Below are positions 46,857 to 63,198 of a stretch of 64,000 bases of DNA, in pieces. The first letter of the stretch is position 1, and each line of letters opens with the position of its first letter. The position numbers and the translations under genes were made by a program. The notes below the pieces were generated by a model. It saw nothing but the letters and a program-made list of their open reading frames with translations. It did no database searches and was not told the DNA's origin. This DNA is from Terriglobus roseus (GTDB lineage Bacteria > Acidobacteriota > Terriglobia > Terriglobales > Acidobacteriaceae), in NCBI RefSeq assembly GCF_900102185.1, contig NZ_LT629690.1:1116001-1180000 (forward strand), in the 5' to 3' direction.

Positions 46857-46861
46857 AGCAA

Positions 46862-46899
46862 ATCTCGCTTTCGAGAGTAATTATCCTCGAAAACGAGAT
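46862..46899. promoter_or_regulatory. Autoregulatory palindrome of the RES-Xre module
   Basis: ATCTCGCTTTCGAG and CTCGAAAACGAGAT flank a 10-base AT-rich spacer; the two 14-base arms match at 13 of 14 positions. Placed directly upstream of the antitoxin ATG, it is most likely the toxin-antitoxin operator, overlapping the promoter. Confidence 0.75.
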
Positions 46900-47189
46900 G
46901 CGCGGCAAGCAGTCTAGATAAGCAATCTGGGAGGATCATAATCCGCCTAACGAGCCTCCGATAGACCGGGGCAGAGTCGAGCATTTGTCGCAGTTCCAGA
47001 TAACTGCAGAAGATTTTCTTGTGAGTTGAACACCTCAACCCACGGTACGATGGCGAGCAAAAGATTCATGAACAGCACAGTCTTGGAAGGCGGGTTTGAC
47101 GATGAGCGGCCCGAAGTGACGTGCGTTCGTATCGTCTCAAGAGCACCAGATCGCCATCTGTCTGGCTATGAGCTGGCATCCCATGGTGG
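46900..47189. other. Divergent spacer
   Basis: About 290 bases between the toxin-antitoxin operator and the oxidoreductase gene. Small open frames here are not protein-like. It holds the promoters of both. Confidence 0.4.
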
Positions 47190-48473
47190 ATGGACACTCC
47201 GCGGGATCTTTTCGTCGACGTATCTTCTTCTTCTCGCCGTGCTTTTTTGCGATCTGCTTCTTCGGCGATTGCGGGCATGGCAGCGGTGGTACCCAGCGCG
47301 AGTGGCCAAGCGCAGAAGCCGAATGAGGCGAATGATGTCCAGTTATCGCAGATTCATGCTGCAACCGAGGCTCCAGAGAAGGCCCCGGGGCCATTCCTGC
47401 CCGTGAATCGCCGCGTGGGCTTTGCGATTGTTGGGCTGGGACGTCTTTCGCTCAATCAGATTCTGCCGGCGTTCGCAACAAGTGACTACTGCAAGCCAGT
47501 TGCTCTTGTGAGCGGAGATCGTCCGAAGGCGCTCAAAATTGCGGCGCAGTACGGCATTGCCGTGAGTCACATCACCGATTACGCCGGCTTTGAAAAACTG
47601 AAAGAAATGTCCGGTGTGGATGTGATTTATATCGTGTTGCCAAATGGAATGCATTACGAGTTCGTACTTCGCGCGGCAAAGATCGGCAAGCACATTCTCT
47701 GCGAGAAGCCGATGGCAAACAGCACCGCACAGTGTGAAGAGATGATCGCTGCCTGTCAACGAGGGAACGTGAAGTTGATGATCGCGTATAGGCAGCAATA
47801 TGAGCCGATGAATCGGGCTTTGGAAAAGGCAGTGCGAGAGGGCAAGCTAGGAAAGCTACGCAGCATTGTGGCTTCAAATTCGCAGAATGAAGGCGATCCA
47901 ACGCAGTGGCGGCTCAACAAGCAACTAGCTGGCGGGGGAGCGCTACCCGATGTTGGGATTTATTGCTTGAATGCAAGTCGTTTCCTCTCGGGAGAAGAGC
48001 CGAACGAGGTAATCGCAACTCTGGTGCAGCCCAAAGACGATCCTCGTTTCAAAGAGGTCGAAGCGCGGTGCGAAGTGATCGCACGGTTTCCAAGCGGTAT
48101 GACCGCAACATTCACAAGCGGGTATGACGTGCATCGCTCGGCATTCTTACGGCTCGAGGGAACCGATGGCTTTGCCGAGGTGGATCCAGCCTTCGGATAT
48201 CACGGTTCAAAGCTTCGCTTCACGAAACTGATGGACGGAAAAGACACCGAACTACATCCAGCGATTGAGGAGAAAGATCAGTTTGCCCTCGAGATGGATC
48301 ACATGGCTGTTTGCGTCCTGCAGAATCAGCAGCCACGCACAGGTGGTGAGGAAGGGTTGCAAGATCAAAGAATCATCGAGGCGATCTATCGCTCTGCAAG
48401 AGAAGGGCGCCTCACTTCTATTGAGGCGCCCGCAGGTGCTACACGTCTTGGCATTCTGCCGCCGCTTGAGTAG
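47190..48473 (+). CDS. Tat-exported Gfo/Idh/MocA-family oxidoreductase
   Basis: 427 residues. Tat motif SSRRAFLRSASSAIAGMAAV (15-34). The Rossmann motif is VGFAIVGLGRLSLNQILPAF; the catalytic-site signature CEKPMANSTAQCEEM and YRQQYEP follow. Such exported members (glucose-fructose oxidoreductase type) carry bound NADP and interconvert sugars in the periplasm. A short 3' spacer separates it from the convergent PQQ-type dehydrogenase, so both may act on the same sugar pool (inference). Confidence 0.92.
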   Translation: MDTPRDLFVDVSSSSRRAFLRSASSAIAGMAAVVPSASGQAQKPNEANDVQLSQIHAATEAPEKAPGPFLPVNRRVGFAIVGLGRLSLNQILPAFATSDYCKPVALVSGDRPKALKIAAQYGIAVSHITDYAGFEKLKEMSGVDVIYIVLPNGMHYEFVLRAAKIGKHILCEKPMANSTAQCEEMIAACQRGNVKLMIAYRQQYEPMNRALEKAVREGKLGKLRSIVASNSQNEGDPTQWRLNKQLAGGGALPDVGIYCLNASRFLSGEEPNEVIATLVQPKDDPRFKEVEARCEVIARFPSGMTATFTSGYDVHRSAFLRLEGTDGFAEVDPAFGYHGSKLRFTKLMDGKDTELHPAIEEKDQFALEMDHMAVCVLQNQQPRTGGEEGLQDQRIIEAIYRSAREGRLTSIEAPAGATRLGILPPLE

Positions 48474-48504
48474 CGAGCGGCAGGGCCGCTAGGACTCTCG
48501 GGGA

Positions 48505-49671
48505 TTATCGCGAATAGGTGATTCGATAGAGAATCCCATTCTGCTCATCGCCGAGCAGGACGCTTCCGTCTGCCATTTGCGCCAAGCCAAAGGGGCGAGC
48601 AAACCGAGCCCATCCACTACCACCTTGGGTCTGCATCAGAAAGCCATCGACAAACGGCGTGATTGTCTTGGCGACGCTACCTTCAAAATGAATGCGAACC
48701 ACTTGGTAGCCGCTGGGTGGGTTGGCTCCCCATGAGCCGTGCATGCTGGCCAGCGCATCCCCGTCGAAATCGGACGGCAGCCCCGTTCCTTTGAGGAAGA
48801 TCAGTTGCATGCCGGACGCGTGGGCATTCCAAGTCAAAACTGGAAGGGTTGTTTTCGCGGCCCATTGATCGAGAGTGGCGCCATGGGGTGGTGTGAGATA
48901 AAGGTTCTTGAGACCGTTGCCAAGGATGTACGGCCAGCCGTACTCCTTGCCCTGTTCGATCTCGTTCAACTCTTCACGTTGCTCCTGATCACCCATCCAA
49001 TCCACGCCATCGTCCCACCCATACAAGTCCTTGGTGCCGGGCTTGAAGTTGAATCCAATCGTGTTGCGAAGCCCGGTGGCAAAGGTCTCTCGACCGCTAC
49101 CGTCCAGGTTGTAACGCTGCATCGTACTGTTGATGTGATTCCGTTCCTCGCAGGTATTGCAGGTACTCCCGACCGAGACGTATAGCTTGTTGTCCGGTCC
49201 CACCGCGAGCGTCCGATCCACATGTTGTCCAGCGTCCGGCAAGTCCGTAATCAGAAGCTTCGATGCCCCGAGCGTTCCGTCGGGATTGAGCGGTGCGGCG
49301 TATACCTGCTTGATCGTGACGTAGTACAGGATGCCGGCATGGATCACCATGCCGTGCACATTTTCCAGTTCGAGAACCTTCTTCTTCTTACCTCTGCCAT
49401 CTATCATCGTGATTGTTCCCGCATCGCGGCTGCTGACGTAAATGTTTCCAGCTTCGGAAACTACGACGACCCGAGGACTATCCAATTCTTCGACGAATTT
49501 GGCGATATGAAAACCCGCGGGCAGCTTCAGTCTCCCGATATTCTCCGGCGTGGCGGTCAGCGGCGCTGGCAGCACTACGTTGACGGTGTGACTATCACGC
49601 TGTGGGTTCGGCATCGTCTGTGCCGAAGCCGACAACGCGAGAGCGGTGAAGAATACAACCGGAGTGAGTTT
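48505..49671 (-). CDS. PQQ-type sugar/sorbosone dehydrogenase-like beta-propeller protein
   Basis: 388 residues from MKLTPVVFFTALALSASAQT, a signal peptide. It has propeller blades of the soluble glucose/sorbosone dehydrogenase family: LTATPENIGRLKLPAGFHIA, AVGPDNKLYVSVGSTCNTCE, FATGLRNTIGFNFKPGTKDL, GKEYGWPYILGN, DALASMHGSWGANPPSGYQV. Two Cys in CNTC may bind heme or form a disulfide. Location periplasmic. PQQ must be made elsewhere. Confidence 0.9.
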   Translation of the reverse strand, partial: KLTPVVFFTALALSASAQTMPNPQRDSHTVNVVLPAPLTATPENIGRLKLPAGFHIAKFVEELDSPRVVVVSEAGNIYVSSRDAGTITMIDGRGKKKKVLELENVHGMVIHAGILYYVTIKQVYAAPLNPDGTLGASKLLITDLPDAGQHVDRTLAVGPDNKLYVSVGSTCNTCEERNHINSTMQRYNLDGSGRETFATGLRNTIGFNFKPGTKDLYGWDDGVDWMGDQEQREELNEIEQGKEYGWPYILGNGLKNLYLTPPHGATLDQWAAKTTLPVLTWNAHASGMQLIFLKGTGLPSDFDGDALASMHGSWGANPPSGYQVVRIHFEGSVAKTITPFVDGFLMQTQGGSGWARFARPFGLAQMADGSVLLGDEQNGILYRITYSR

Positions 49672-49810
49672 CATGCAGCAAGGGATGCGAACTCGCCCGA
49701 ACGATGTTGCCACGGGCTCTCACTCAATGCTGGTGCCTTCCATGCGGTGGAATAGCACTTCCCGAATCGTTGAGGTGGCGCACGGGTGGTACGTTGCATC
49801 CTATGAATTT

Positions 49811-52494
49811 ATGAATGACGCTCGGAGTCGAGCAGAAGGCGCACAGACAACCGGAATGATTCGCGTGCGAGGTGCGCGCGAACATAACTTGAAGAATGTC
49901 GACGTGGATATTCCGCGAGATGCGTTGGTCGTGTTTACCGGCGTTTCAGGATCGGGCAAATCGTCTCTTGCGTTTGGAACGTTGTATGCCGAAGCGCAAA
50001 GGCGTTATTTGGAATCGGTATCGCCCTATGCTCGTAGGCTTTTCCATCAACTGAGCATTCCCGAAGTTGATTCCATCGAAGGTCTTCCCCCAGCCGTTGC
50101 TCTGCAACAACAGCGAGGAAGTGGCACCACGCGGTCTTCGGTTGGAAGTGTGACGACACTTTCGAACCTGTTTCGCATGTTGTATTCAAGAGCTGGGAAC
50201 TATCCGGCCGGCCGCCCGATGCTTTATGCCGAATCGTTCTCACCCAATCGGATTGAGGGGGCCTGCCCAAAGTGCAACGGGACCGGCCGCATCTACGAGG
50301 TGACCGAACAATCCATGGTGCCGGACCCATCGTTGACGATTCGCGAGCGTGCCATTGCTGCGTGGCCTACTGCGTGGCAGGGGCAGAATCTACGTGACAT
50401 CCTCGTCTCCTTAGGCTACGACGTCGACACACCGTGGAAACGGCTTCCCGCCAAAGAACGGAAGTGGATTCTGTTCACGGACGAGCAACCAACAGTCCCA
50501 GTGTATGCAGGGTTCACGCCCACTGAAACTCAGCAAGCATTACGACGCAAGCTAGAGCCGAGTTATATGGGCACTTTCACCAGCGCCCAGCGTTACGTGA
50601 TGAAGACCTTCTCAAAATCCCAGAGTGCCATGATGAAACAGCGAGTCGCGCAGTTCATGCTCAGCAGCGAATGTTCTTTGTGCCACGGCAAGAGGCTCCG
50701 AACGGACGCACTGGATGTGACATTCGCAGGCATGGACATTACGCAGATGAGCCGTCTGCCGCTAAAACAATTGGCAACGATCCTGCAGCCCTTCACTACG
50801 GGGAGTTCGAATGATTTTGCCAAGCACGTAGAAAAGGCAGCCGCGGCGCAACGCATCACGCAGGATGTCGTGAGTCGACTCGAGGTATTGATCGAACTCG
50901 GTCTCGGCTATTTGGATTTGGAGCGAAGTACACCGACACTGTCCCCCGGAGAACTTCAGCGGCTCAGACTTGCGACACAGTTGCACTCAAATCTTTTTGG
51001 TGTTGTGTACGTGCTGGATGAACGATCGGCTGGCCTGCATCCATCCGACACAGAGACGCTACTCCACGCACTCGCGGCGTTGAAGAAGAGCGCAATTCGC
51101 TCTTCGTCGTCGAACACGAAGTGGACGTCATCCGGGCTGCCGATTGGATTGTGGATGTCGGGCCTGCAGCCGGAGCATACGGTGGTGAGGTGCTCTACAG
51201 TGGACCGCTAGCAGGACTAAAGGGTGTCGGCAGCTCCGAAACCGCCAAGCATCTCTTTGCGAACGCCGCAGCTTCCGTAGCTGCACGAAGAAACCCAAAA
51301 CAATGGCTACGTCTGGAAGGTGTGACCCGTAACAATCTCCACCAGGTTGCTGTATCGATTCCGCTTGATGTTCTGGTGGCGGTCACTGGTGTGTCTGGAT
51401 CGGGGAAATCCACCCTAGTCAGCCAGGCTCTAGTGGATCTCATTGCGGCGCATCTCGGCCAACCAATTGAGGATGGAGAGGAAGACGACGCTCTCGCTGC
51501 ACACCCCTCAGTGGTTCTAACGCAGGGAAGAATTCTGTCCGGCATGGAAGGTATACGTCGATTGGTCCGCGTCGATCAAAGACCAATTGGACGAACGCCG
51601 CGTTCCAACATCGCCACGTATACCGGTCTGTTCGACGAAGTCCGAAAACTCTTCGCATCAACGAAGCTGGCACGTACACGGAAATATGATGCAGGCCGCT
51701 TCTCTTTCAATGTGACGAAGGGGCGCTGCGAGACCTGCAAAGGAGAAGGGCAGGTCTGTGTCGAACTACTTTTTCTACCGAGCGTATATTCACCGTGCCC
51801 GACCTGCCACGGTGCGCGCTTCAATGCCAAAACACTCGAGGTGACCTGGGGCGGCAAGAACATCGCAGAGGTTTTAAACCTGAGGGTCGATGATGCAATC
51901 GTATTCTTCGACACGTCCCCATCCGTCCGTCACTCATTGCAAGTCTTACACGAGGTCGGATTGGGTTATCTCCGATTGGGACAACCTGCGACCGAACTCT
52001 CCGGCGGAGAAGCCCAGCGCGTGAAATTAGCGACGGAGTTGCAGCGTGCCACCCGCGGGAACACGATCTACGTTCTCGACGAACCAACCACAGGCCTCCA
52101 TCCTGCGGACGTAACACGGCTGCTACGGCAATTGAACGAACTTGTGTCTGCGGGCAATTCGGTGGTGATCGTTGAACACGACATGCACGTTGTCGCGGCG
52201 AGCGATTGGGTCATCGACATTGGTCCCGGCGCGGGTGAAGAAGGTGGAACGATTGTCGGAGAAGGAACTCCCGAGCAAATAGCCCACATCTCCGGGAGCA
52301 GAACGGCGCCTTACATCCGGAGTCGGTTGGGGATTTCGGGGCGCATCAAGGGCGCATCCTACAGAAGACAGATCGTGATTCCTTCGGAGACGACAATGAA
52401 ATCCCTTAGCGAATCCCACCAAATTGAAACCGCTTCCAGACGGAGGCCAAAGCATCCAAGTCATCGTCGAAACTCCCGCACGAAGTCGAAATAA
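49811..52494 (+). pseudogene. uvrA: UvrA-like excinuclease ATPase (UvrA2 type), split by a frameshift
   Basis: The 5' frame (from MNDARSRAEGAQ or MIRVRGAREHNLKN) has Walker A GVSGSGKSSLAFGTL, signature LSPGELQRLRLA and a Walker B DERSAGLHP with Arg in place of Pro. Near 51090 one G is missing from an AGCGGCAATTCG-type context; the other frame then gives SLFVVEHEVDVIRAADWIVD and the second ATPase half (GVSGSGKSTLVSQAL, zinc pair CETCKGEGQ ... CPTCHG, LSGGEAQRVKLA, DEPTTGLHP). The product runs past its usual end into the next gene. Without correction no functional protein is made. Confidence 0.85.
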
Positions 52495-52989
52495 GTTCGC
52501 GTTTGATCCCGATCAGGAAATCTTCACGCTCAAGAGCGTTCTTCCAGCCGGCATGGTCTTCCCCTATGACGGCTTTCTGCCCGGGACCGAGGGAGGCGAT
52601 GGCGATCCGGTGGACGTGCTTCTTCTCATGGATGAGCCAGCGTTTCCTGGAGTCGCCGTCAGAGCTCGCCTCATCGGCGTGATCGTGAGCGAACAGGTTG
52701 ACGGCAAGAAGAGGCTTCGTAACGACAGGCTAGTTGCGGTATCCGAATCGACCCATCAATACGCAAAGATCAAACCTTATCCGATCTCCCGAAGAAGTGG
52801 ATTCGCGAACCGGAGACGTTCTTTGTGAACTATCACGGACTCGAGGGCAAGAAATACAAGTTGCTTGGCTGCAAAGGCCCCAAACAGGCTTTCGCATCAT
52901 CAAAACCAGCCGGAGCAAGTAGGGGCGAGTTGGGAAACATCGCTGAAGCAAAGTCATCTGATTTCGATCCGAATCAGTTCCGTAACTGA
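52396..52989 (+). pseudogene. Inorganic pyrophosphatase gene with two frameshifts
   Basis: Pieces in three frames rebuild a family I pyrophosphatase: MKSL then ANPTKLKPLPDGGQSIQVIV with a shift near 52407; VETPARSRNKFAFDPDQEIF, GMVFPYDGFLPGTEGGDGDP and VDVLLLMDEPAFPG (metal-binding Asp cluster) in the main frame; then a shift near 52764 into LSDLPKKWIREPETFFVNYH and GLEGKKYKLLGCKGPKQAF. A single base fix at each site would restore one ORF. It directly follows the broken uvrA-like gene. Confidence 0.78.
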
Positions 52990-53101
52990 CGGAGTGGGTT
53001 TATTCTCGGAAACCTCCAGACACCCGGGAACGATCTGCAAGCCCATGCGTTGATGGAATGGTTTCGCTGAGCCTGCCATACCTTGGGTAGACACTTCAAC
53101 T

Positions 53102-53857
53102 TTGGATAGAGCACTTCAGGCGACGTTCGATCGATCTCAGCGCATCACAGACAGCGTGATTGTGCCGATTACTGATGACCGGATTTGGCGCGAGAATCTT
53201 GGTACTTTAAGGCCTCTTGATCTGCCGACGGGGCCAATTCTCGTGATCGCTCCGCATCCCGATGATGAGACCCTCGGAGCGGGTGCTCTGATTGCCACTC
53301 TGTCCGCGCAAGCGACGAGAGTGATCGTCGTTGCAGCGACGGATGGGGAGAATGCATATGACCTTCCTCCGGCAGGCCGAATCGATCTTGGCCTCATTCG
53401 CGAGCGCGAACAACGCAAGGCTTTGGGGCTGTTAGGTGTGCAACCGGATTCGGTGATACGTTTGCGCCTAACGGACAGCGGCCTTATGGGACAGCGCTCC
53501 GAGTTGGAACGCAGAGTCATGGAGGTTGCAGAGCCAGGGATGACAATCCTTGCTCCGTGGCAAGGAGACTTTCACCCTGATCACGTTGCATGTGCCCATG
53601 TAGCGTGTTCTGTTGCGCAAGCAAAGGGACTTGCGTTGATATCCTACTTTTTCTGGACATGGCACCGTGGATCTCCAGAGACATTGGACGGACTGCCGTT
53701 ACGGAGATTCATCCCCACCTTCGATGCTCGGGCAGCGAAGGCACAAGCCATTGGCCAGCATCGTTCGCAGTTCGAGAGCGAATCCGGCGATCCTATCTTG
53801 AATGACCGTCTTATTGCCCCGATTTATTGGGACTTCGAGGTCTTCCTTTCTGCATGA
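53102..53857 (+). CDS. PIG-L family deacetylase
   Basis: 251 residues from a TTG start. The zinc motif VIAPHPDDETLGAGALIATL (His52, Asp54, Asp55 area) and the second His of DFHPDHVACAHVACSV are present. Family members remove N-acetyl groups from GlcNAc-type sugars. First gene of an overlapping four-gene operon: its stop and the next start share ATGA. Substrate probably a glycolipid or sugar precursor made by the downstream GT2 enzyme. Confidence 0.92.
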   Translation: MDRALQATFDRSQRITDSVIVPITDDRIWRENLGTLRPLDLPTGPILVIAPHPDDETLGAGALIATLSAQATRVIVVAATDGENAYDLPPAGRIDLGLIREREQRKALGLLGVQPDSVIRLRLTDSGLMGQRSELERRVMEVAEPGMTILAPWQGDFHPDHVACAHVACSVAQAKGLALISYFFWTWHRGSPETLDGLPLRRFIPTFDARAAKAQAIGQHRSQFESESGDPILNDRLIAPIYWDFEVFLSA

Positions 53858-54438
53858 GTACACCCTCGACATCAAGCGCAGATTTCTTTGAAAACAAGTA
53901 TCGGCAAGCCCCCGATTTTGACCCTTGGAGGTTTGCGACCTCGGAGTATGAACTCAGTCGCTACCGAGTCGTTATGCAGGCACTCGAGGGACGTATTTAT
54001 AAACATGCATATGAGCCAGGCTGCTCCATTGGTGTACTCACTCAGCAGCTTGCTTCCGTCTGCAAGACGGTCGATGCGTGCGACTTTTCAGCCACTGCTG
54101 TGGATGTGGCGCGAGAACGTTGCCGTGATCTTCCGGGCGTAACGGTGCGTTGTGCATCACTCACCGGAAGTCAACCCTGGTCGAAGTTCGATCTCATCGT
54201 GCTGTGCGAGATCGGCTACTACTTCACCGCCGACGCTTGGCAGAAATTGGTGGAGAACATGGTTCACGCTATGAGGCCGGGAACAGTGGTGCTTGCTTGT
54301 CACTGGCTTGGGGAATCTGAAGATCATGTACAGCGCGGGCAAGAGGTGCATGAAGCGATATCGCATCCTCTGCTCGTGGGCACGCTGAGTAGCTGCTATG
54401 AAGGATTTCGTTTGGACCGATGGATACGAACAACATGA
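53854..54438 (+). CDS. NodS-like SAM-dependent methyltransferase
   Basis: 194 residues from MSTPSTSSADFFENKYR. The SAM site EPGCSIGVLTQQLA is at 54-67, followed by DACDFSATAVDVAR and FDLIVLCEIGYYFTADAW. Sequence style is that of NodS, which N-methylates the deacetylated sugar of rhizobial Nod factors. It begins as ATGA with the PIG-L gene and ends 19 bases inside the GT2 gene. An N-methyl transfer to the amine freed by PIG-L is the natural hypothesis. Confidence 0.9.
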   Translation: MSTPSTSSADFFENKYRQAPDFDPWRFATSEYELSRYRVVMQALEGRIYKHAYEPGCSIGVLTQQLASVCKTVDACDFSATAVDVARERCRDLPGVTVRCASLTGSQPWSKFDLIVLCEIGYYFTADAWQKLVENMVHAMRPGTVVLACHWLGESEDHVQRGQEVHEAISHPLLVGTLSSCYEGFRLDRWIRTT

Positions 54439-55166
54439 GACTGCCTACTGAACCTGCTATCGCATGGCATTTTGCCGTAATCATTCCGGCCTGTAACGAA
54501 GAGCAACTCCTTCCGTGTTGCCTTCGCTCTGTTGCCACAGCACAAGCCCAGCTGCCGTCGGAGGTGACTTCCGACGTTATCGTCATTGCGGATAGTTCCA
54601 CCGATGACACGGCAAAGGTGGCGAGAGACCTCTTAAGCGGCAATGGTCTGGTATTGGAGATCGATCTCGCGTGTGTAGGCGCTGCACGTTCGCTCGCTGT
54701 GACGGAGGCTCTTGGTCGGTACACTGGGCCATTGAGCTGCTGCTGGATTGCGAACACAGACGCAGACTGTGAGGTCTCGCCAACATGGCTTGTCGACCAA
54801 CTTCGCATCGCGCAACGGGGATTTGAAGCCGTTGCAGGCATCGTTGATGTGCGTGACTTCTCCGAACATCTTTTCTTTGTTGAGGAACGATTTCGGAAAT
54901 CTTATCGAATCGAACCCGACGGGACACACCCACATATTCACGGTGCGAATCTGGGTGTTCGAGCGGACGTTTATCAGATGGCTGGAGGATGGAGTCCTCT
55001 GATGACGGCTGAGGACCACGACCTTTGGCGTCGCTTGGCTGATTGCGGTGCACGACGCCTGAGCGATGCCAGTCTGCAGGTGATCACAAGCGGTCGTCGA
55101 GTGGGGCGAGCGCCGATGGGATTTGCGGGCGCACTTGCCGCACACAATGAAATGGTAGCGGCATGA
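54420..55166 (+). CDS. GT2-family glycosyltransferase
   Basis: 248 residues. GT-A motifs: VIIPACNEEQLLPCCLRSVA, VIVIADSSTDDTAKVARDLL, the donor-site WIANTDADCEV and an acceptor HxN/ED-like stretch MTAEDHDLWRRLADCG. No membrane segment, so soluble or peripheral. Its start overlaps the methyltransferase end and its stop overlaps the next start as ATGA. It would place the sugar that PIG-L and the methyltransferase then modify. Confidence 0.92.
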   Translation: MDTNNMRLPTEPAIAWHFAVIIPACNEEQLLPCCLRSVATAQAQLPSEVTSDVIVIADSSTDDTAKVARDLLSGNGLVLEIDLACVGAARSLAVTEALGRYTGPLSCCWIANTDADCEVSPTWLVDQLRIAQRGFEAVAGIVDVRDFSEHLFFVEERFRKSYRIEPDGTHPHIHGANLGVRADVYQMAGGWSPLMTAEDHDLWRRLADCGARRLSDASLQVITSGRRVGRAPMGFAGALAAHNEMVAA

Positions 55167-56098
55167 CGGGTGAGCATCTTATCGATCGCTTTCGATCGCT
55201 AACGGATGTCCGTCTAGCTCGGCCTGGGATTGGAAAGACTGCGGTTCGCCATGATGCGATTTTTGCTGCAGGGCGGGAAGATTTGAGTCTTGCGAAGTTA
55301 ATTGAGGCCCATTGGGACGCCGTCGCGATTCTTGAGGAGGCTGGTCAGGAGCCAAAGCAGGGAATTGCCTATGCCGTTTGGGCTAGTGAGGTTCCAGGTA
55401 AACCTCTTTCTTTGCGCGACGGGATGCTTCACGGTCAGAAGGACTTTTGCAGTGGTGCCACCCTCGTGGATCGCGCTCTTGTGACAGCAGGTCCTGTCAT
55501 CGTAGAAATCGATCTCAACTCAGCGCCCTCACAATTAACGATCCGAGAAGATGGCTGGAAGACCGAAGCATTTCGGATGACGCACACTGCGTCCCTAACC
55601 TTTGATCACTTTCCCATCGTGTCGATTGTCGGTGATGACGATTGGTACACCAAGCGTGTGGGTTTCTGGCAGGGAGCGTGTGGTCCGGCCGCAGCATGGG
55701 CCGGAGGTGCCGCGGGGCTTGTCGATTATGCCTTTTCCAAAAGACGAGATGAACCGCATTCGATGGCCCACTTGGGTGCCATGAGTGCGGCAGTTATAGG
55801 GATGGAGTATGTGCTGACTGGAGTAGCAGGACATTTCGATGCTATGCCCACAGAACCGGCAATGATTCGAGCTCTCACAGTACGGCATCTCATCGAGGCG
55901 GCCTGTACTGATATCTTGCAACGGTTTGGCAGATCTCTGGGCCCCGCACCACTTGTAAAGCATGTGGAGGTTGCGAGGCGCTATGCGGAGTTGGAACTTT
56001 ACCTGCGCCAGTGCCACGCGGAGCGCGATCTGGAATCGCTTGGGAGAGCTCTCAACTGCATTGGCGCCTTGCCTGGATCAAATGGGCTGTTCGCATAG
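55163..56098 (+). CDS. Acyl-CoA-dehydrogenase-like flavoprotein of the four-gene operon
   Basis: 311 residues. ACAD elements are seen: GIAYAVWASEVPGKPLSLRD, DGMLHGQKDFCSGATLVDRA, LVTAGPVIVEIDLN and a C-terminal helical domain (FWQGACGPAAAWAGGAAGLV ... RRYAELELYLRQCHAERD). It is shorter than usual (about 380). It could desaturate an acyl chain on a glycolipid or act as an oxidase on a sugar. It is the last operon gene; a spacer of a few bases leads to a convergent response regulator. Confidence 0.85.
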   Translation: MTGEHLIDRFRSLTDVRLARPGIGKTAVRHDAIFAAGREDLSLAKLIEAHWDAVAILEEAGQEPKQGIAYAVWASEVPGKPLSLRDGMLHGQKDFCSGATLVDRALVTAGPVIVEIDLNSAPSQLTIREDGWKTEAFRMTHTASLTFDHFPIVSIVGDDDWYTKRVGFWQGACGPAAAWAGGAAGLVDYAFSKRRDEPHSMAHLGAMSAAVIGMEYVLTGVAGHFDAMPTEPAMIRALTVRHLIEAACTDILQRFGRSLGPAPLVKHVEVARRYAELELYLRQCHAERDLESLGRALNCIGALPGSNGLFA

Positions 56099-56105
56099 GT
56101 TCAGA

Positions 56106-56477
56106 TCATTTGGTCTGTTTTCGCCGCATGATGCAGCCCAACAACACTGACGTGAGCGTTGTTGTCTCAAACGGGAAGGTAAGGAAAGCGTCGGAGCCGT
56201 GAGTGGAAACGGGTGAGCCTTCCGCCGTCAGAAGTATGATCGCGACGCTCTGCATGGATGGATCGTCGCGAAGCATGGTCATGACTTCGACTCCGTCCAT
56301 GTCCGGCATATGCAGATCCAGCAACACTGCATCAGGGCGGAGAGATCGTGCGCGAGCGATACCTTCTGTTCCGCCGAATTCGGCATAAGCTTCAAAACCC
56401 TGAAGCGTGAGTAACTCCGCCAGTCCCTGGCACCGGGCACGGTTGTCGTCGATAACAAGGACGTTGTAGGCCTTCAT
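56106..56477 (-). CDS. Single-domain response regulator
   Basis: 123 residues. Receiver fold MKAYNVLVIDDNRARCQGLA, phospho-Asp in PDAVLLDLHMPDMDG, Thr in IILLTAEGSP; the expected Lys near the C-terminus is replaced in this region (DAFLTFPFETTTL), so signalling may be altered. No output domain, no partner kinase adjacent. It lies convergent to the four-gene operon, 7 bases away. Confidence 0.85.
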   Translation of the reverse strand: MKAYNVLVIDDNRARCQGLAELLTLQGFEAYAEFGGTEGIARARSLRPDAVLLDLHMPDMDGVEVMTMLRDDPSMQSVAIILLTAEGSPVSTHGSDAFLTFPFETTTLTSVLLGCIMRRKQTK

Positions 56478-56838
56478 AAGACATTGAGTTTATAAAATCC
56501 TTTCCTAGATTCCTATCCCACCACTAGCGCGCCACAGAAAGGCGCTGATCGCTTGTAGCGTTGAAGTCATGCATCGTAGGGGTGGTCCAAATCGAGAATC
56601 GTCGCAAGCAGAGGACGCCCAGCTTTAATTGAATGGGAAAACTCTCTGCGTTACTCAACTCCTCATCGCAGAAAAAGATGAGGCAATGCATTATCCCAAC
56701 TAGGAATATGTCGGAATCTGCCTTGGGCAGAGCGGAGGAATCTCCCATGCGGACGAGTAATTTGCTACCAAGGGCCGATCGTCTCAAGCTCGCCAGCACC
56801 CCTCCGCATTTCACTGATGATTGTTGTAGAACTAACTG
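56478..56838. other. Divergent spacer
   Basis: About 360 bases; ORFs on both strands are not protein-like. It should hold the promoters of the response regulator and the DUF2252 gene. Confidence 0.4.
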
Positions 56839-58038
56839 ATGGCTCAAGTCGCGTCTTCCATCAAGCCCCGAGATCGGTCGAAGGTTCTTAACGCAAATCG
56901 TCAGGCGAAGATGGCTCAGTCTGCCCACGCCTATGTTCGCGGAAACACGCTCCAGTTTTACGAATGGTTGAAAAAGGATTCGGCCAAGAGCATTCCGGAG
57001 GGCCCGCCGGTCTGGATCTGCGGGGATTGCCACGTGGGGAATATTGGACCGCTGTCCGATTCGGACGGCAAAATTGAAATCCAGATTCGCGATCTGGACC
57101 AGACGGTTGTCGGAAACCCTGCTCATGACTTAGTGCGGTTAGCGCTCTCGCTGGCAACGGCAGCACGCGGGTCCGATCTGCCGGGCGTCACTGTCGTCAA
57201 AATGATGGAACAGATGGTCGAAGGTTACGAACGGGCTCTCGTCGCTCCGAACACAACCATCAAAGCCAACAGTGACGATCTTGCTCCCATCCGAAACGTA
57301 CTGGAACAATCACGCCGCCGTCGCTGGCATCATCTTGCTGAAGAAAGGATCGAGGATGTTAAACCCCAGATCCCCCTCGGAAAGCGATTCTGGATGTTGG
57401 AAGAGCAGGAGCGCGTCGCGATGGATGAACTGTTTCGTGATGAAACGGTTGTAGCGAAAATTCTGGCATTCAAAGGCCGCAGGCCGGGATCAAAAGTATC
57501 CGTAGTGGACGCTGCCTATTGGATGAAGGGATGCAGTTCGCTCGGTCGACTCCGCTTTGCTGTTCTTCTCAGCATTGGCAAGAAAGCCGACCGAACCCAC
57601 TGCCTGATTGACCTTAAGGAAGCTACTTGTGCTGCTGCACCGAAGGTCGAAATGACCATCCGCAACGACGCGGAGAGAGTGGTGACGGGAGCGTCGAATC
57701 TCTCTCCGAACCTAGGCCAACGAATGTTAGCAGTCCCGCTTCTCGGGAAAAATCTTGTTATGCGCGAGCTAATGCCGCAAGACCTCAAATTCGATCTCGA
57801 TCGCCTGACCCAGCAAGAAGCTATGGCGGCGGCTCGCTATCTCGCAGGAATCGTGGGCAAAGCTCATGGTCGGCAGATGAACCGCAAGACGCGCCAATCG
57901 TGGCTCGCCAAGTTGGAGAAACAACACTCGAAAAGCCTGGATGCCCGGAACTGGTTGTGGTCAAGTGTAGTTTCGCTAATTGCAGACCACGAAGCGGCTT
58001 ATCTGGAACATTGCAGGCGATACGCGAGTTCCTCCTGA
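56839..58038 (+). CDS. DUF2252 protein (kinase-like fold)
   Basis: 399 residues. The family signature is visible in VWICGDCHVGNIGPLSDSDG and IEIQIRDLDQTVVGNPAHDL, a phosphotransferase-like HxxN and D pair, then LVRLALSLATAARGSDLPG and VVDAAYWMKGCSSLGRLRFA. Function in the cell is unknown; members are common beside stress and catalase genes. No signal peptide. It stands alone on the plus strand. Confidence 0.9.
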   Translation: MAQVASSIKPRDRSKVLNANRQAKMAQSAHAYVRGNTLQFYEWLKKDSAKSIPEGPPVWICGDCHVGNIGPLSDSDGKIEIQIRDLDQTVVGNPAHDLVRLALSLATAARGSDLPGVTVVKMMEQMVEGYERALVAPNTTIKANSDDLAPIRNVLEQSRRRRWHHLAEERIEDVKPQIPLGKRFWMLEEQERVAMDELFRDETVVAKILAFKGRRPGSKVSVVDAAYWMKGCSSLGRLRFAVLLSIGKKADRTHCLIDLKEATCAAAPKVEMTIRNDAERVVTGASNLSPNLGQRMLAVPLLGKNLVMRELMPQDLKFDLDRLTQQEAMAAARYLAGIVGKAHGRQMNRKTRQSWLAKLEKQHSKSLDARNWLWSSVVSLIADHEAAYLEHCRRYASSS

Positions 58039-58102
58039 CAGCTCCCTCAGCGTGTGCCGAAGGAGCAGCTTTGGTGCGCCGTCACGGAACTGTCTGATGG
58101 AA

Positions 58103-58177
58103 CTAGCGAGAGAACAGTGCAATCAGGAGCACTATCGGGATGGGAACACCGAGCAACAATAATAGAATTGAGCGCAT
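58103..58177 (-). CDS. 24-residue single-span membrane peptide
   Basis: GGAGGAAATGAA precedes the ATG at 58177. The product is almost entirely hydrophobic (MRSILLLLLGVPIPIVLLIA then LFSR). It follows the minus-strand membrane-protein gene by 36 bases. Similar tiny membrane peptides are widespread next to stress genes; role unknown. Confidence 0.55.
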   Translation of the reverse strand: MRSILLLLLGVPIPIVLLIALFSR

Positions 58178-58213
58178 TTCATTTCCTCCGAAATTCCGAG
58201 CCGTTGGACCGCC

Positions 58214-59047
58214 TTAGATGGTGATTACACGGTCGCGCTGACGCCCGCCGACCGTCGCGGCGAAGCTGGCACTGAAGGCTCCGATAAGAAGCGCCAGGAA
58301 TGTCCATAGAAGCGAGTGGGCAGTTGCTTTCCGAAGTTCGTCAGCGGATTGTTGTGCGTTCGTAAATGCATTGGAAACTCGTTGCTTCGCATCCTGTGGT
58401 GATATTCCGGTCTGAGTAGAAACGACTTGTTCCAGATAGGCTTGATCCTCCGTGGGCAAGCTCCCCTTTTGCAATCCGTTCGCAAAGATGAGAGCGACTT
58501 CAGAACGGATTGCATTTCCGACGGGATCTGTCTTTGCTCCGGAATTCCGAAACAAGCTATCGACGAAGTATGCGAAAGAACTGTAAGCGGAGCCCGAAAC
58601 CTTCTCTGCGTCACCCTTGGAAGATACGGACGCTCCGACCATGGTCGTCGCGGCCGTAGCCAAGAACGCTGCGGTCACGACGAGAGCGGTGGACCAGGCC
58701 AAAAAGCCGTGTGCGGTGTCACGGAAGTAGACCTCATCCGTGTGGACTGACGTCCATTTCGTGCGCAGCCTTCCGGCCAGATAGCCGCCCATCGCCGAGC
58801 TCAGAATCTCCATCACGATCAGCCACATGATCGCCGAATGTCCGATGCCCGACGCCGAGACCCCGGTGTTCGACCACGGTGAGACGGACGAAAGGCCCAG
58901 GCCGGCTCCAAGAGCGAGCAGAATCAGAACCAGGGCAGCGGTGACGAAGGCCCCAGCAAAAACCGCGGACCACGATACGCCGGAAGCATTCGCTTCGGGC
59001 TGTCCGTGGGTCGTCGAAGAATAGGAACTCGCTATCGGTTCGGACAT
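58214..59047 (-). CDS. Integral membrane protein of unknown function
   Basis: 277 residues. Four hydrophobic segments (VFAGAFVTAALVLILLALGA, SAIMWLIVMEILSSAMGGYL, AWSTALVVTAAFLATAATTM, LLWTFLALLIGAFSASFAAT) surround a soluble periplasmic-type stretch. YLAGRLRTKWTSVHTDEVYF resembles channel-like small proteins with a Gly-rich turn. Ends 36 bases before a small membrane peptide. No family confidently named. Confidence 0.7.
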   Translation of the reverse strand: MSEPIASSYSSTTHGQPEANASGVSWSAVFAGAFVTAALVLILLALGAGLGLSSVSPWSNTGVSASGIGHSAIMWLIVMEILSSAMGGYLAGRLRTKWTSVHTDEVYFRDTAHGFLAWSTALVVTAAFLATAATTMVGASVSSKGDAEKVSGSAYSSFAYFVDSLFRNSGAKTDPVGNAIRSEVALIFANGLQKGSLPTEDQAYLEQVVSTQTGISPQDAKQRVSNAFTNAQQSADELRKATAHSLLWTFLALLIGAFSASFAATVGGRQRDRVITI

Positions 59048-59107
59048 TGGCGGTCTACTTTCTGGCGCACATATAGGCGCGGTATAGTTGCGTGAAACCC
59101 CGATAAT

Positions 59108-59680
59108 TTATAGGTCTCGTGAGGCCTTGGTTTCGTCTTCCTTGCTTTTCTTCGCGGAGTATTTCTCTTTGCCCGTTTTGGGTTTTGGCTCCGGCTCTGG
59201 CTCCGTGGAAGACCTTCTGATGAGCGGTACGCCGATCTTCGTGATCTTCTTAGCGGCTGCGAGCTCCTCCCGCAGATTGGCCGTCAGCAGTGACACAATC
59301 TTGCGCTCGCCCAGTCCCTGCGCCATCGCAATGCACGCCTCATAGCCCGCGATCTCGTAATGTTCCGTACGGAGCGCGGCACCGACGATTCCCACGTCGA
59401 AGGAAGCCCCTTCTTCGTCCTTCTCCAGGGCGTCTGCACCCTCTTCAATCACGCCTTCCATGCCGTTACAGTGTTGGCCAGTCGGTTTCTCACCAAGCAA
59501 TGCAAAGACGCTCCTGAGCCGCAAGACTTGGCCCTTGGTCTCTTCCAGATGCGATTGGAAAGCTGCCTTGAGCGCCTTATCTTTCGCGCCCTTCGCGAGC
59601 TTTGGTAGAGCCTTCACGAGTTGGTTTTCCGCGCTGTACATATCGCGCAATTCATCCAGAAGTACTGTCTTCAATGCCAT
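59108..59680 (-). CDS. DUF892 ferritin-like protein (YciF type)
   Basis: 190 residues. Four-helix pattern with acidic ligands: VLLDELRDMYSAENQLVKAL, HLEETKGQVLRLRSVFALLG, LRTEHYEIAGYEACIAMAQ, ANLREELAAAKKITKIG. The C-terminal 40 residues are Lys/Glu/Pro-rich. Third DUF892-type gene in the window. It probably belongs to the general stress response with the nearby metal transporter. Confidence 0.92.
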   Translation of the reverse strand: MALKTVLLDELRDMYSAENQLVKALPKLAKGAKDKALKAAFQSHLEETKGQVLRLRSVFALLGEKPTGQHCNGMEGVIEEGADALEKDEEGASFDVGIVGAALRTEHYEIAGYEACIAMAQGLGERKIVSLLTANLREELAAAKKITKIGVPLIRRSSTEPEPEPKPKTGKEKYSAKKSKEDETKASRDL

Positions 59681-59803
59681 GTCAGGTCACCATCGGTTGA
59701 TCTAGTTACGTTTTAACCAATGGTGAGATGCAGAATTGGACCGGATGGAGCGCTTCACTTACTGGAAACCGCAATCGGTCAATTAACGACTACGTGCCGT
59801 CGA

Positions 59804-61111
59804 TCACATCGAAGATACGATGAGGCCGATGGCAGCGGCGGTCATGATTAGGGCGCACGTCCAACCAAGGCATTTCATGCCGATGGTGTTCGTCCGGTTG
59901 CCCATCACCTTCCTGTCGCTTGTGAGCAGGACAACCATAACAACGAGGGGAGGTGCCAAAAGGCCGTTGAGGATAGCTGACCAGAAGAGCATCATCACTG
60001 CGTTCAAATGAGCGAAGTCCAGCGCGAGACCCACCGCGATCGAGACCCCAATAATTCCATAGAATTTCCGAGCGAGCTGGGGTTTGAGGTTCAGCGATGC
60101 CGCTCTCCATCTCGCACCCTCTGCGACTGCGTAGGCGCACGAGCCGGCAAGAACTGGGACCGCAAGCATCCCCGTCCCGATCATACCCAGGGTAAAAAGC
60201 CAATATGCTCCTCCGCCAGCCAAGGGGCGAAGCGCTTCCGCCGCTTGCTTAGCGGTCTCGATATCTTTATGACCGTGAGCGTTCAGCGTCGCAGCCGTTG
60301 TCAGGATCAAGAAGTACATCACGACGTTGGAGAGCAGCATGCCCGTCACCACATCGAGCCTCGCCGAGCGAATCTCTGCGTCGGTAGAACCCTTTCGTTG
60401 TGCGACCGTGGTTTTTCCATGCGCACGATCTTCCTCCACCTCCTGCGCCGCCTGCCAAAAGAAGAGATAGGGCGAGATCGTGGTTCCGAGGATCGCAACC
60501 AACACGGCGATGTAGGCCTTGCTCCATTCAATGTGTGGGACGAAGGTCGAATGGGCAACTGTGCGCCAGTCAGGATGGGCGAGGAACGCAGTAATGATGT
60601 ATGCGAAGAGAACAAGCGTTAGCCATTTGAAAATCCGGGCCATCAGGCGGTACGACGTCCAGAAAAGAAGGGCGACGATTGCGGCTGCAAAGAGCGGTGT
60701 CCAGTAATACGAAGGGATACCGGTCATCATTTGCATGGCGTCGGCCATGCCGCCCAAGTCCGCGCCTATGTTGAAGATGTTCGCGATGATGACCAGCGAG
60801 CAAGACAGCCACAGAACCCATCGCGGGTAACGGTTGCGAATCACACTGGCCAGACCGCAGCCTGTCACCATGCCCAGCTTGGCGCACATGAACTGAACAG
60901 CAGCCATCAGTGGGAAGGAGAGCAGCGCCGTCCAGAGCGTCGCGTATCCAAAGGACGCCCCGGCAACGGAGTAAGTCGATATCCCGGAAGGATCGTCGTC
61001 AGCAGCTCCGGTAATGATGCCGGGTCCGAGTTCCTTCAGGAATTGTTGAAGGCCATTCGGGGCCGATCCCTCAATTGCCGAGCCGTCCGTTGAAACGTCT
61101 CGTTTCGTCAC
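59804..61111 (-). CDS. NRAMP-family divalent metal transporter (DDDPSG variant)
   Basis: 435 residues, eleven or so membrane segments. The first helix has GIITGAADDDPSGISTYSVA, whereas canonical MntH has DPGN; the change at the metal site suggests altered ion choice. Helix 6 region: YIAVLVAILGTTISPYLFFW. The substrate is probably Mn2+, Fe2+ or Mg2+. A Mn transporter would support the manganese catalase of this island (inference). Confidence 0.9.
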   Translation of the reverse strand: MTKRDVSTDGSAIEGSAPNGLQQFLKELGPGIITGAADDDPSGISTYSVAGASFGYATLWTALLSFPLMAAVQFMCAKLGMVTGCGLASVIRNRYPRWVLWLSCSLVIIANIFNIGADLGGMADAMQMMTGIPSYYWTPLFAAAIVALLFWTSYRLMARIFKWLTLVLFAYIITAFLAHPDWRTVAHSTFVPHIEWSKAYIAVLVAILGTTISPYLFFWQAAQEVEEDRAHGKTTVAQRKGSTDAEIRSARLDVVTGMLLSNVVMYFLILTTAATLNAHGHKDIETAKQAAEALRPLAGGGAYWLFTLGMIGTGMLAVPVLAGSCAYAVAEGARWRAASLNLKPQLARKFYGIIGVSIAVGLALDFAHLNAVMMLFWSAILNGLLAPPLVVMVVLLTSDRKVMGNRTNTIGMKCLGWTCALIMTAAAIGLIVSSM

Positions 61112-61394
61112 GTCTCATGGTACGGGATTCGAGTTAACGGATACTAACATAATGCCTTAGTTGGACCAACGACGTCTGCCGGGCTCTGTCGCAGGCGAAG
61201 TAGATACCGAGCAGCGGTCCGCAAAAAGGCACATCAGGTTCCGCCACCTATCTTGGCTACCTCTCGTCGAACCTTGGAGCTTTCGGAACACGCTGGCGAT
61301 TACGATCATCAGGTTCAGAAGCGATTTAACGCCATCGGTCGTCCTGTAGAAAACGCGGCGATGTAACTCATCATCCATTTTGGCGACGAGGTGA
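61112..61394. other. Divergent promoter region
   Basis: About 280 bases between the metal transporter and the ThDP enzyme. No ORF is convincing. Holds both promoters. Confidence 0.4.
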
Positions 61395-63149
61395 TTGAGC
61401 GTGGATGCATCGGACGTACTGGTAGAACGGCTAATCGCTTGGGGTGTGGATACGATTTTTGGGCTGCCCGGCGACGGCATCAACGGCGTGATGGAAGCGC
61501 TTCGGAAGAAGCAGGACAAGATCAACTTCATCCATGTTCGGCATGAAGAATCCGCTGCGTTTATGGCCTGCGCTTATGCGAAGTTCACCGGAAAGATCGG
61601 TGTGTGTCTGGCAACGAGCGGACCTGGCGGAATCCATCTGCTGAATGGTTTGTACGACGCAAAGTTAGACGGCGCACCCGTGTTGGCCATCACCGGTATG
61701 CAGTTCACGGATGTTACCGGCTCGTTCGGTCAACAGGATGTGCAGTTGGACAAAGTCTTTATTGATGTTGCTGTTTATAACGAGCGCATCATGAGTCCCA
61801 CGCATGTTGAGTCAACCATGGACCTGGCAATCCGCACGGCGATCACTCGGCGTGGCGTAGCGCATGTGACGATTCCCATCGACACCCAGATGATGGAAGT
61901 GAAAAGTTCACAGCGTTCTGAGCGCAACGTGGCCCATCACAGCAATGCCGTCTATGCGATCGCAGGGAATAAGCCGGTCGAAGGCGACCTGCAATCTGCA
62001 GCTGCTGTTTTGAATGCCGGAAAACGCATCGCAATTCTTGCCGGAGCCGGGGCATTGCATGCAACCGAGGAATTGTTGCAGATCGCTGAACTGCTGGGAG
62101 CACCCATTGTGAAGCCGTTGTTGGGGAAGGCAACCGTGCCAGATGATTCGCCATATACAACAGGCGGAATTGGCCTTCTTGGAACGGCTCCCTCACAAGA
62201 GGTAATGGAAAACTGCGACACGCTGCTCATGGTCGGCACAAGCTATCCCTACATGGAGTATCTGCCCAAGCCCGGCGATTGTAAGTGCGTGCAGATTGAC
62301 GCGAATGCACAACGAATCAGCCTACGGTATCCGACCGAAGTGGGTCTCGTGGGTGACAGCAGGAAGACCCTTCGTGAGCTGTTGCCGCTGTTGCGGCACA
62401 ATGACTACCGCAAGTTCCTGGAGCAGGCTCAGACCGGTATGAAGGATTGGAACAAGATCATTGAAGCGGAAGGTACAGATCCCGCTTCTCCCATGAAGCC
62501 GCAGGTGGTGGGTTACGAACTGAGCAAGCGTACGCGGGAAGACGCGATTATCGTCAGTGACAGCGGTACAAACACTACCGTGTGGGCACGTTACATGCAC
62601 GCGAAGCGGGGACAAAAGCATTCATGCAGCGGCAACCTGGCGACCATGGCGGGCGGTATGCCCTACGCGATTGCGGCTCAGGTTGCATATCCAGATCGAC
62701 AGGTGATTGCAGTGATTGGCGACGGCGGCTTCACCATGCTGATGGGCGAGATCATCACCGCGGTGACCTATAAGTTGCCTATCAAGTTCGTCATTATCAA
62801 GAACAATACGTTGGGCCAAATTAAATGGGAGCAGATGGTCTTTGAGGGTAACCCCGAATACCAGTGCGACTTGCTTCCCATTGACTTCGTCTCGCTTGCA
62901 CGCTCAGTCGGTGCGGAAGGTATTCGTATCGACGAGCAGAAAACAGCAGGAGCGAGGTTTGATGAGGCCTTGGCGATGTCTGGTCCGGTGATCATTGAGT
63001 GCGTGGTTGATCCATTAACGGCGATGCTGCCTCCCAAAATCACTGCAAAGCAAGCATTGAAATTTACGGAAGCATTGGCGAAGGGCGAACCGAACCGTCT
63101 TCGCATTGCGCTGACTGCAGCACATGACACTGTTAGGCAAATTGTGTAA
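61395..63149 (+). CDS. ThDP-dependent enzyme, pyruvate oxidase / pyruvate:quinone dehydrogenase-like (PoxB type)
   Basis: 584 residues from TTG (GTG 61401 also fits). ThDP N-terminal glutamate in FIHVRHEESAAFMACAYAKF, central FAD-type region (AILAGAGALHATEELLQ), and the ThDP-Mg motif GDGGFTMLMGEIITAVTYKL with NN partner (IKNNTLGQIKWEQM). It lacks a clear C-terminal membrane-binding helix. Expected to decarboxylate pyruvate to acetate; acetolactate synthase-like use cannot be excluded. Followed by an enolase-superfamily gene on the same strand. Confidence 0.88.
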   Translation: MSVDASDVLVERLIAWGVDTIFGLPGDGINGVMEALRKKQDKINFIHVRHEESAAFMACAYAKFTGKIGVCLATSGPGGIHLLNGLYDAKLDGAPVLAITGMQFTDVTGSFGQQDVQLDKVFIDVAVYNERIMSPTHVESTMDLAIRTAITRRGVAHVTIPIDTQMMEVKSSQRSERNVAHHSNAVYAIAGNKPVEGDLQSAAAVLNAGKRIAILAGAGALHATEELLQIAELLGAPIVKPLLGKATVPDDSPYTTGGIGLLGTAPSQEVMENCDTLLMVGTSYPYMEYLPKPGDCKCVQIDANAQRISLRYPTEVGLVGDSRKTLRELLPLLRHNDYRKFLEQAQTGMKDWNKIIEAEGTDPASPMKPQVVGYELSKRTREDAIIVSDSGTNTTVWARYMHAKRGQKHSCSGNLATMAGGMPYAIAAQVAYPDRQVIAVIGDGGFTMLMGEIITAVTYKLPIKFVIIKNNTLGQIKWEQMVFEGNPEYQCDLLPIDFVSLARSVGAEGIRIDEQKTAGARFDEALAMSGPVIIECVVDPLTAMLPPKITAKQALKFTEALAKGEPNRLRIALTAAHDTVRQIV

Positions 63150-63198
63150 TTAAGCATCGCGGGATGGGCGACCGTCCGGCGATTCGTATAGGCATGCC

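Follow-up and report, generated by a model that had tools for sequence, protein, structure and literature searches.

A recurring four-gene cassette of Terriglobus roseus that may make a modified amino-sugar metabolite

Introduction

What do four tightly overlapping genes of the acidobacterium Terriglobus roseus make, and do they make it together? The genes lie at positions 53,102 to 56,098 of a 64,000-nucleotide stretch (NCBI RefSeq assembly GCF_900102185.1, contig NZ_LT629690.1, positions 1,116,001 to 1,180,000; hereafter the window), and are predicted to encode, in order, a PIG-L family de-N-acetylase (PIGL), a NodS-like methyltransferase (NODS) dependent on S-adenosylmethionine (SAM), a family-2 glycosyltransferase (GT2), and a protein resembling acyl-CoA dehydrogenases (ACAD-like). 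An initial annotation, made from the DNA sequence, described an overlapping operon that parallels Nod-factor tailoring and may make an undescribed glycolipid or signalling molecule. We propose, with a probability of about one half, that the genes form a mobile, stress-associated cassette, which would make a soluble, modified amino-sugar metabolite via GT2, PIG-L, NodS-like, and ACAD-like steps. That the four genes act together is very probable.

Gene order and overlaps are conserved across distant bacteria

The window contains the four open reading frames (ORFs), common strand, and overlaps of the initially annotated operon (Table 1). As first called, the three junctions comprise two 4-base overlaps and one 19-base overlap; both lengths had been reported correctly, but as three 4-base overlaps and one 19-base overlap, when four genes have only three junctions. 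The 19-base overlap results from a GT2 start at 54420, while the ATG at 54435 gives a 4-base ATGA overlap, and because 38/44 NODS>GT2 junctions (relatives and window) offer a start codon at -4, all three overlaps are probably 4 bases long. Similarly, the TTG at 53102 (giving a 251-aa PIG-L ORF) is probably too early a start, and the GTG at 53156, which corresponds to the start of PIG-L in relatives near (M)IVPL..E..W, is likelier. Four-base overlaps are the commonest in bacterial operons, so an overlap by itself is weak proof, and it is the recurrence that serves as evidence.

Relatives were located through the ACAD-like gene, and the sample hence favours that gene. All four genes, on either strand, were present at 42/58 loci, and a second, overlapping set of loci had at least four genes on one strand at 43/58. 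The order PIGL-NODS-GT2-ACAD occurred at 28 of these 43 loci (and at one more with a split ACAD), ACAD-PIGL-NODS-GT2 at eight, and GT2-ACAD-PIGL-NODS at four; these three main orders are rotations of a single cyclic order, which still fits two Novosphingobium loci that carry additional GT2 genes. A start codon 4 bases inside the upstream gene was available at 127/158 junctions overall (PIGL>NODS, 38/50; GT2>ACAD, 33/38; ACAD>PIGL, 15/20; the total also includes the NODS>GT2 junctions above and six others), and the overlaps are thus conserved, whereas their absence from related species would have spoken against the initial annotation. A gene-order search across genomes, an approach suggested with that annotation, recovered the cassette, with this cyclic order kept, from distantly related bacteria, and this recurrence is more than chance.

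Both sets were filtered. The first began with 59 loci, of which L120 fell under a 100-bit floor; it leaves out L053 (whose cassette is 99.97% identical to that of L052), L014 (inside L092), and L091 and L054, which are L012 and L013 and have no stand-in there. The second, with an 80-bit floor, adds L013 and L123-L126 and leaves out L010, L012, L042, L043, L045, L047, L058, and the stubs L059-L061; some lack genes. The individual gene profiles were made with 10-12 sequences each, taken from loci later scanned, so that those matches arise by construction, and Rubrobacter sequences were included in the ACAD, NODS, and GT2 profiles. L014, titled Verrucomicrobia, was rejected as a representative of another phylum: its sequence lies wholly inside L092 of genome G464, from the window's own family, and it is probably a mislabelled metagenome-assembled genome.

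Within the window's family, a loose ACAD-like profile (A1, 17 relatives) matched 123/150 genomes, mostly weakly and in a manner resembling ordinary ACADs (seven matches exceeded 200 bits), and a stricter profile (A2, E ≤ 1e-40) was therefore used. Among 398 family genomes, it found the ACAD-like gene in 35, and profile A7 (E ≤ 1e-40) found GT2 in 33; the two occurred together in 32 of the 36 genomes with either, and alone in three and one, respectively (Fisher p 1.3e-42, kinship ignored). The methyltransferase (profile A6, E ≤ 1e-25) was found in 39 genomes, sharing 32 with the ACAD-like gene, and all three genes in 31, with some matches being fragments or at contig ends. Of the seven genomes with a methyltransferase match and no ACAD-like match, G236 carries a diverged full set, and in three others the match sits in a 600-700-aa open frame. 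Distribution is patchy even within the window's genus (8 genomes with, T. roseus included, and 11 without).

The cassette also occurs on plasmids. In tblastn searches of 72,556 plasmid records, the window protein matched 38 and a Novosphingobium relative matched 71; we examined 28 plasmid loci (27 in the neighbour counts, then L127). Hosts include Acinetobacter, Sulfitobacter, Deinococcus, Paracoccus, Cupriavidus, Pandoraea, Comamonas, Streptomyces, Kitasatospora, Embleya, Legionella lytica, and Nostoc, and relatives were found in Pseudomonadota, Actinomycetota, Deinococcus, and Nostoc (the latter with all four genes, GT2 being on the opposite strand). In a tree of ACAD-like proteins that leaves out the short matches L016 and L119, 34 PIGL-first rows form one side of a branch (100/99; seven of the 34, whose sets are incomplete, received the label by clade), and since this side includes the Legionella lytica plasmid copy, the tree argues for a mobile cassette that has moved between phyla. 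An Acinetobacter baumannii record titled as a plasmid (L127, 3.66 Mb) carries the order ACAD-PIGL-NODS-GT2 (325, 233, 238, and 255 bits), and a relative is also present in each of two records from a phage collection (232 and 305 kb), both named Acinetobacter phage; two scans of viral contigs returned no relatives. Remnants in two family genomes (Table 1) are consistent with decay of the cassette: at two places in G306, a PIG-L stub with HPDDETLG is followed, after some 30-40 codons, by the C-terminal remainder of an ACAD-like gene, and a C-terminal ACAD-like stub is also left in G327. The set stays together in Acidobacteriota as well as in Pseudomonadota and Actinomycetota, Deinococcus and Nostoc have sets that are related or partial, and some loci lie with catalase, ferritin-like, and trehalose genes; the product is very likely of use under stress, and if so, a small molecule of stress-tolerant bacteria has escaped notice.

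Three of the proteins belong to glycosyl transfer, de-N-acetylation, and N-methylation families

The families initially assigned to glycosyl transfer, de-N-acetylation, and N-methylation held up, with intact motifs. PIG-L scored 84.9 bits against PF02585 (cut-off 28.2, E 8.8e-24), and the zinc-site residues of HPDDE and HxDH were present in 48/48 rows, with the Asp two residues earlier in 47/48. Its closest curated families in NCBIfam are BshB1 (52.1 bits, cut-off 182.5), BshB2 (44.3 bits, cut-off 195.25), and MshB (34.7 bits, cut-off 224.35), all far under their cut-offs, and its solved-structure matches include diacetylchitobiose deacetylases. GT2 scored 63.4 bits against PF00535 (cut-off 23.3, E 3.3e-17), with the DxD aspartates in 49/49 and 48/49 rows and the ED pair in 48/49; its structure model, built from three sequences, had a predicted local distance difference test (pLDDT) score of 57.6.

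The position of PIG-L adjoining the ACAD-like gene is taken on a Rubrobacter plasmid by a polysaccharide deacetylase with NodB as its best family (113 bits, cut-off 240). This replacement is the best hint available that PIG-L acts here as an amino-sugar de-N-acetylase, and only a hint because Rubrobacter is a long, unsure branch in the ACAD tree. On the same plasmid, a Pyr_redox_2 flavoprotein gene lies between those of the methyltransferase and GT2.

The methyltransferase matched PF05401 (E 2e-15), its motif residues were present in 49-51/52 rows, and its solved relatives are 4isc (92 bits) and NodS itself (3ofj, 47 bits). De-N-acetylation and N-methylation of an amino sugar are both features of Nod-factor tailoring (NodB, NodS), and a lipochito-oligosaccharide or other plant-directed signal might be envisaged from the NodS-like protein, the NodB-like deacetylase in Rubrobacter, and a cassette locus on the plasmid of a soybean-nodule Bradyrhizobium. 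However, the methyltransferase reached 63.8 bits against the NodS equivalog, far under its cut-off of 300, and PF05401 also matched in 8/14 control genomes, E. coli among them. In the loci read, no NodA- or NodC-type gene is annotated next to the set (a NodA search of the genome found no match, but its control gave none either), an ACAD-like enzyme is added, and the hosts, among them Deinococcus, Acinetobacter, Legionella, and Streptomyces, extend far beyond rhizobia. The neighbours, moreover, are largely of stress type. Kinship with Nod clusters is thus not supported; a Nod-type signal cluster is set aside as the leading explanation on score, hosts, and context, and we regard a product of this kind as highly improbable.

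The fourth protein is a putative oxygenase or oxidase with a likely ACAD fold

The ACAD-like ORF alone matches neither Pfam (E 0.01), ACAD families included, nor NCBIfam, and it takes a family profile to connect it with acyl-CoA dehydrogenases. Among relatives, one Deinococcus protein has an ACAD domain over the cut-off, Rubrobacter has one under it, and a second Deinococcus has none. When profile A1 was compared with the PDB, DszC and TdsC provided the top four sequences, followed by 5z8t (labelled flavin-containing monooxygenase in the structure search), 5gj7, isobutyryl-CoA dehydrogenase, which outscored MsuC in eighth place, and further dehydrogenases. Nitrososynthases (DnmZ, ORF36, KijD3), which oxidise the nitrogen of amino sugars, ranked lower, with many dehydrogenases above them. 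The best NCBIfam match of the Bradyrhizobium and Comamonas relatives was SfnB, under its cut-off. Although the top PDB ranks belong to ACAD-fold flavin monooxygenases, its identity to DszC and TdsC is 16-22% in structural alignments, and the N-terminus is short in the window's clade (311 aa).

The alignment of isobutyryl-CoA dehydrogenase (1rx0) with a C-terminal profile (A4) stops at R370, and a gap-free extension by six residues places E376, which we take to be the catalytic glutamate at the position shared by medium-chain acyl-CoA and isobutyryl-CoA dehydrogenases, on C284. Glutamate was found at this main catalytic position, the only site considered, in 0/17 rows. An ACAD fold is therefore likely, while activity as an acyl-CoA dehydrogenase is unlikely, and a role as a putative oxygenase or oxidase, with predicted flavin use, is plausible. 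The acyl-chain oxidation or desaturation proposed initially is not supported by these results, as DszC and TdsC rank first and desaturation is unlikely without glutamate at the main site. The label "acyl-CoA dehydrogenase" carried by this gene in public records is likewise called into question.

The short N-terminus and absent glutamate could also indicate that the protein is no enzyme, and serves as a structural partner or regulator of GT2 or the deacetylase. Yet E48 (55/58 rows), H50 (56/58), W73, K93, W132, R241, and Q283 (all within 55-57/58) are near-invariant and scattered along the protein in a manner that looks like an active site, and we consider a non-enzymatic role decidedly unlikely.

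Two unusual gene forms were encountered. An apparent GT2-ACAD fusion in Methylobacterium aquaticum (L018) was rejected, the Arg/Ser/Pro/Cys-rich middle of the stop-free ORF looking out of frame. Two Deinococcus ORFs (Table 1) join an extra N-terminal domain of ~400 aa, alike in both, to the ACAD-like part. A profile excluded GT2 as its identity, and the L042 domain had no Pfam or NCBIfam match and a single PDB chain at chance level (E 0.88); we suspect, by eye only, a glycosidase-like barrel.

Stress genes near the cassette

KatE-type catalase genes were found near 9/39 family loci (the near-copies L052 and L053 both counted, and L105 in three pieces) and 6/27 plasmid loci (L008, L009, L011, L021, L049, and L123; L009 and L123 by annotation only, and a 40-bit match in L018 left out). 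As background, such a gene occurs anywhere in 468/72,556 plasmid records (binomial 2e-8, with kinship and plasmid size ignored). Other annotated neighbours include Dps, ferritin-like proteins, CsbD, Ku, and DNA ligase D.

Trehalose genes form a further part of this context. OtsA is encoded near 3/27 plasmid loci (L007, L009, and L020, two being close kin) versus 346/72,556 records, the cassette is nested between otsA and otsB on two Comamonas plasmids, and it lies near otsA/otsB in Acinetobacter ursingii; in Legionella lytica, its neighbours include otsB and a GH65 gene. The acceptor or scaffold could accordingly be trehalose or a related disaccharide, yielding an N-methylated amino-trehalose-like protectant, and co-regulation with otsA/otsB in A. 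baumannii, where the locus tags are far apart, would suit this (PMC5660220). Nonetheless, neither the window stretch nor any of the 39 family loci gave a trehalose match, no trehalose gene was seen in 23/27 plasmid loci, and the two Comamonas loci are close kin, which leaves a trehalose-derived solute quite unlikely.

The A. baumannii data come from Table 2 of PMC5660220, where ACICU_02432-02435, annotated as glycosyltransferase, SAM-dependent methyltransferase, LmbE, and ACAD-related, are given as one operon that is down 31- to 62-fold in two colistin-dependent mutants. The 33 down genes there include trehalose-6-phosphate synthase and phosphatase (12- to 50-fold) and catalase (22- to 31-fold). 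As far as this table goes, it supports co-regulation of the cassette with stress genes, in a mutant rather than a stress state, and leaves the odds of our proposal unchanged. The same four kinds of genes stand beside blsA in A. baumannii strains (PMC6240043), and directly after the cassette of L127 there is a 156-aa ORF (Table 1), which may be the light receptor BlsA. The initial description of the product as undescribed thus needs qualifying: the genes have been listed in both papers, while the available text of neither gives a function, pathway, or product for the set, and no product is known as far as the papers listed by one open-access library go. The available text of PMC6181384 concerns KatE and drying and has no LmbE, PIG-L, or ACAD term, and dr_A0009/dr_A0010 in PMC10778927 are dtrA/B, which are genes other than those of the cassette.

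A proposed route to a soluble amino-sugar metabolite

Mycothiol and bacillithiol are small stress metabolites whose pathways (MshA/MshB, BshA/BshB1) transfer N-acetylglucosamine (GlcNAc) to a small acceptor, followed by de-N-acetylation by a PIG-L family enzyme. We propose a comparable sequence, in which GT2 would load a small acceptor with an N-acetyl-amino sugar, probably GlcNAc; PIG-L would then remove the acetyl group; the NodS-like enzyme would N-methylate the freed amine; and the ACAD-like putative flavoprotein would oxidise or oxygenate the product, with the nitrogen or a position adjoining it as the most plausible site. The cassette would yield a redox metabolite or a compound that protects against stress. 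The deacetylation step is supported by the BshB1, BshB2, and MshB matches, the diacetylchitobiose deacetylases, and the NodB-like replacement. Unlike the mycothiol and bacillithiol pathways, the cassette has a glycosyltransferase of the GT2 family, an added methyltransferase and ACAD-like protein, and no Cys ligase that we could see. We infer the substrate and product class, the order in which the steps occur, the use of flavin, and the function of the cassette.

A bolder version would see in the ACAD-like proteins a family of amino-sugar N-oxygenases that is new, and in the product a hitherto unknown class of amino-sugar redox metabolite, N-methylated and N-oxygenated (hydroxylamine, nitrone, or imine), which many unrelated bacteria would use against oxidative stress and desiccation. 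We hold this version to be unlikely.

Glycosyltransferases and deacetylases acting on lipid acceptors follow a known logic (PIG-A/PIG-L, HpnI/HpnK); in the hopanoid pair HpnI/HpnK, GlcNAc transfer precedes deacetylation by an enzyme of a family other than PIG-L. In envelope or membrane glycolipid tailoring of this sort, GT2 would glycosylate a hopanoid-like lipid or a lipid carrier, the amino sugar would be modified by PIG-L and the methyltransferase, and the ACAD-like protein would act on the lipid. Extra GT4/GT2 genes in Novosphingobium and Jiella loci and a weak match of GT2 to HpnB (21.5 bits) point in this direction, and the change of the A. baumannii set in colistin-dependent mutants could reflect the envelope (PMC5660220). 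None of the window's four proteins, however, has a strong hydrophobic segment, which supports a soluble metabolite; genes for lipid carriers, flippases, or acyltransferases do not recur beside the set, and no hopanoid gene was seen there, in the annotated loci (the look at lipid genes excludes the unannotated L016, L017, L018, L044, L050, and L127). Together with the glutamate missing from the main ACAD site, these observations make glycolipid tailoring unlikely.

Several results weigh against the soluble stress metabolite that we propose. Hydrophobic stretches over 1.6 do occur in relatives (PIG-L, 7/48; GT2, 8/49; ACAD, 3/58), and at least one gene is missing at 16/58 loci, some of them at contig ends. 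Regarding the fourth protein, profile A4 matches dehydrogenases and monooxygenases alike, the structure model is poor (pLDDT 64.4, from four sequences), and the matches based on it share the ACAD fold, with dehydrogenases and oxygenases mixed: the 50 VIA rows place dehydrogenases and MsuC, TdsC, and DszC within about 1.5 Z of one another, and nitrososynthases appear in Foldseek, but not in those 50 rows. As for the stress association, the neighbours tested in the window (46001-64000) gave no KatE or trehalose match, the 39 family loci no trehalose match, and most loci have neither a KatE nor a trehalose gene in the stretch seen, while ACICU_02432-02435 were likened to the cassette by table descriptions, not by protein sequence.

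Other genes around the cassette in the window

Several neighbours in the window recur near the cassette elsewhere (Table 1). The DUF892 ferritin-like protein is encoded near the cassette also in L051, L103, L104, and L120, and Nramp in L101, L103, and L106, as well as adjoining the cassette on the Legionella lytica plasmid. Relatives of the 277-aa membrane-type protein were observed near cassettes in L103, L104, L120, and a Pandoraea plasmid (L015).

Table 1. Coordinates of the cassette genes, their neighbours, and features at related loci
Feature	Location	Coordinates	Strand	Remarks
PIG-L family de-N-acetylase	Window	53156..53857	+	First called 53102-53857; start chosen by comparison with relatives
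NodS-like SAM-dependent methyltransferase	Window	53854..54438	+	First called 53854-54438; PF05401
Family-2 glycosyltransferase (GT2)	Window	54435..55166	+	First called 54420-55166; alternative start 54420
ACAD-fold flavoprotein-like protein	Window	55163..56098	+	First called 55163-56098; family profile; no Pfam/NCBIfam match alone
Response regulator receiver protein	Window	56106..56477	-	Convergent, outside cassette; PF00072, E 2.5e-16
DUF2252 protein	Window	56839..58038	+	PF10009, E 4.2e-70; near cassette also in L051, L103
277-aa membrane-type protein	Window	58214-59047	-	No Pfam, NCBIfam, or PDB match
DUF892 ferritin-like protein	Window	59108..59680	-	PF05974, E 4.3e-47
Nramp metal transporter	Window	59804..61111	-	PF01566, E 2.2e-90
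UvrA-like protein	Window	49646-51211 and 51121-52494	+	Two overlapping ORFs
Inorganic pyrophosphatase	Window	52424-52990	+	Split between frames
Extended ACAD-like ORF, Deinococcus	L042	6543-8882		779 aa
Extended ACAD-like ORF, Deinococcus	L043	4735-6978		747 aa as annotated
156-aa ORF after A. baumannii cassette	L127	9671-10141	+	
Decayed cassette stub	L059	~7500-8000		Stubs in two family genomes
Decayed cassette stub	L060	~7600-8100		
Decayed cassette stub	L061	~7800-8300		

Upstream of the cassette, the UvrA-like ORF pair is possibly one frameshifted gene. The pyrophosphatase gene is probably truly broken rather than affected by a sequencing error, because L103, of the same genus and with an ACAD-like protein 97% identical to that of the window, has the same shortened frame of 134 aa. 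Pyrophosphatases of 177 aa were observed in L094, L099, and L101.

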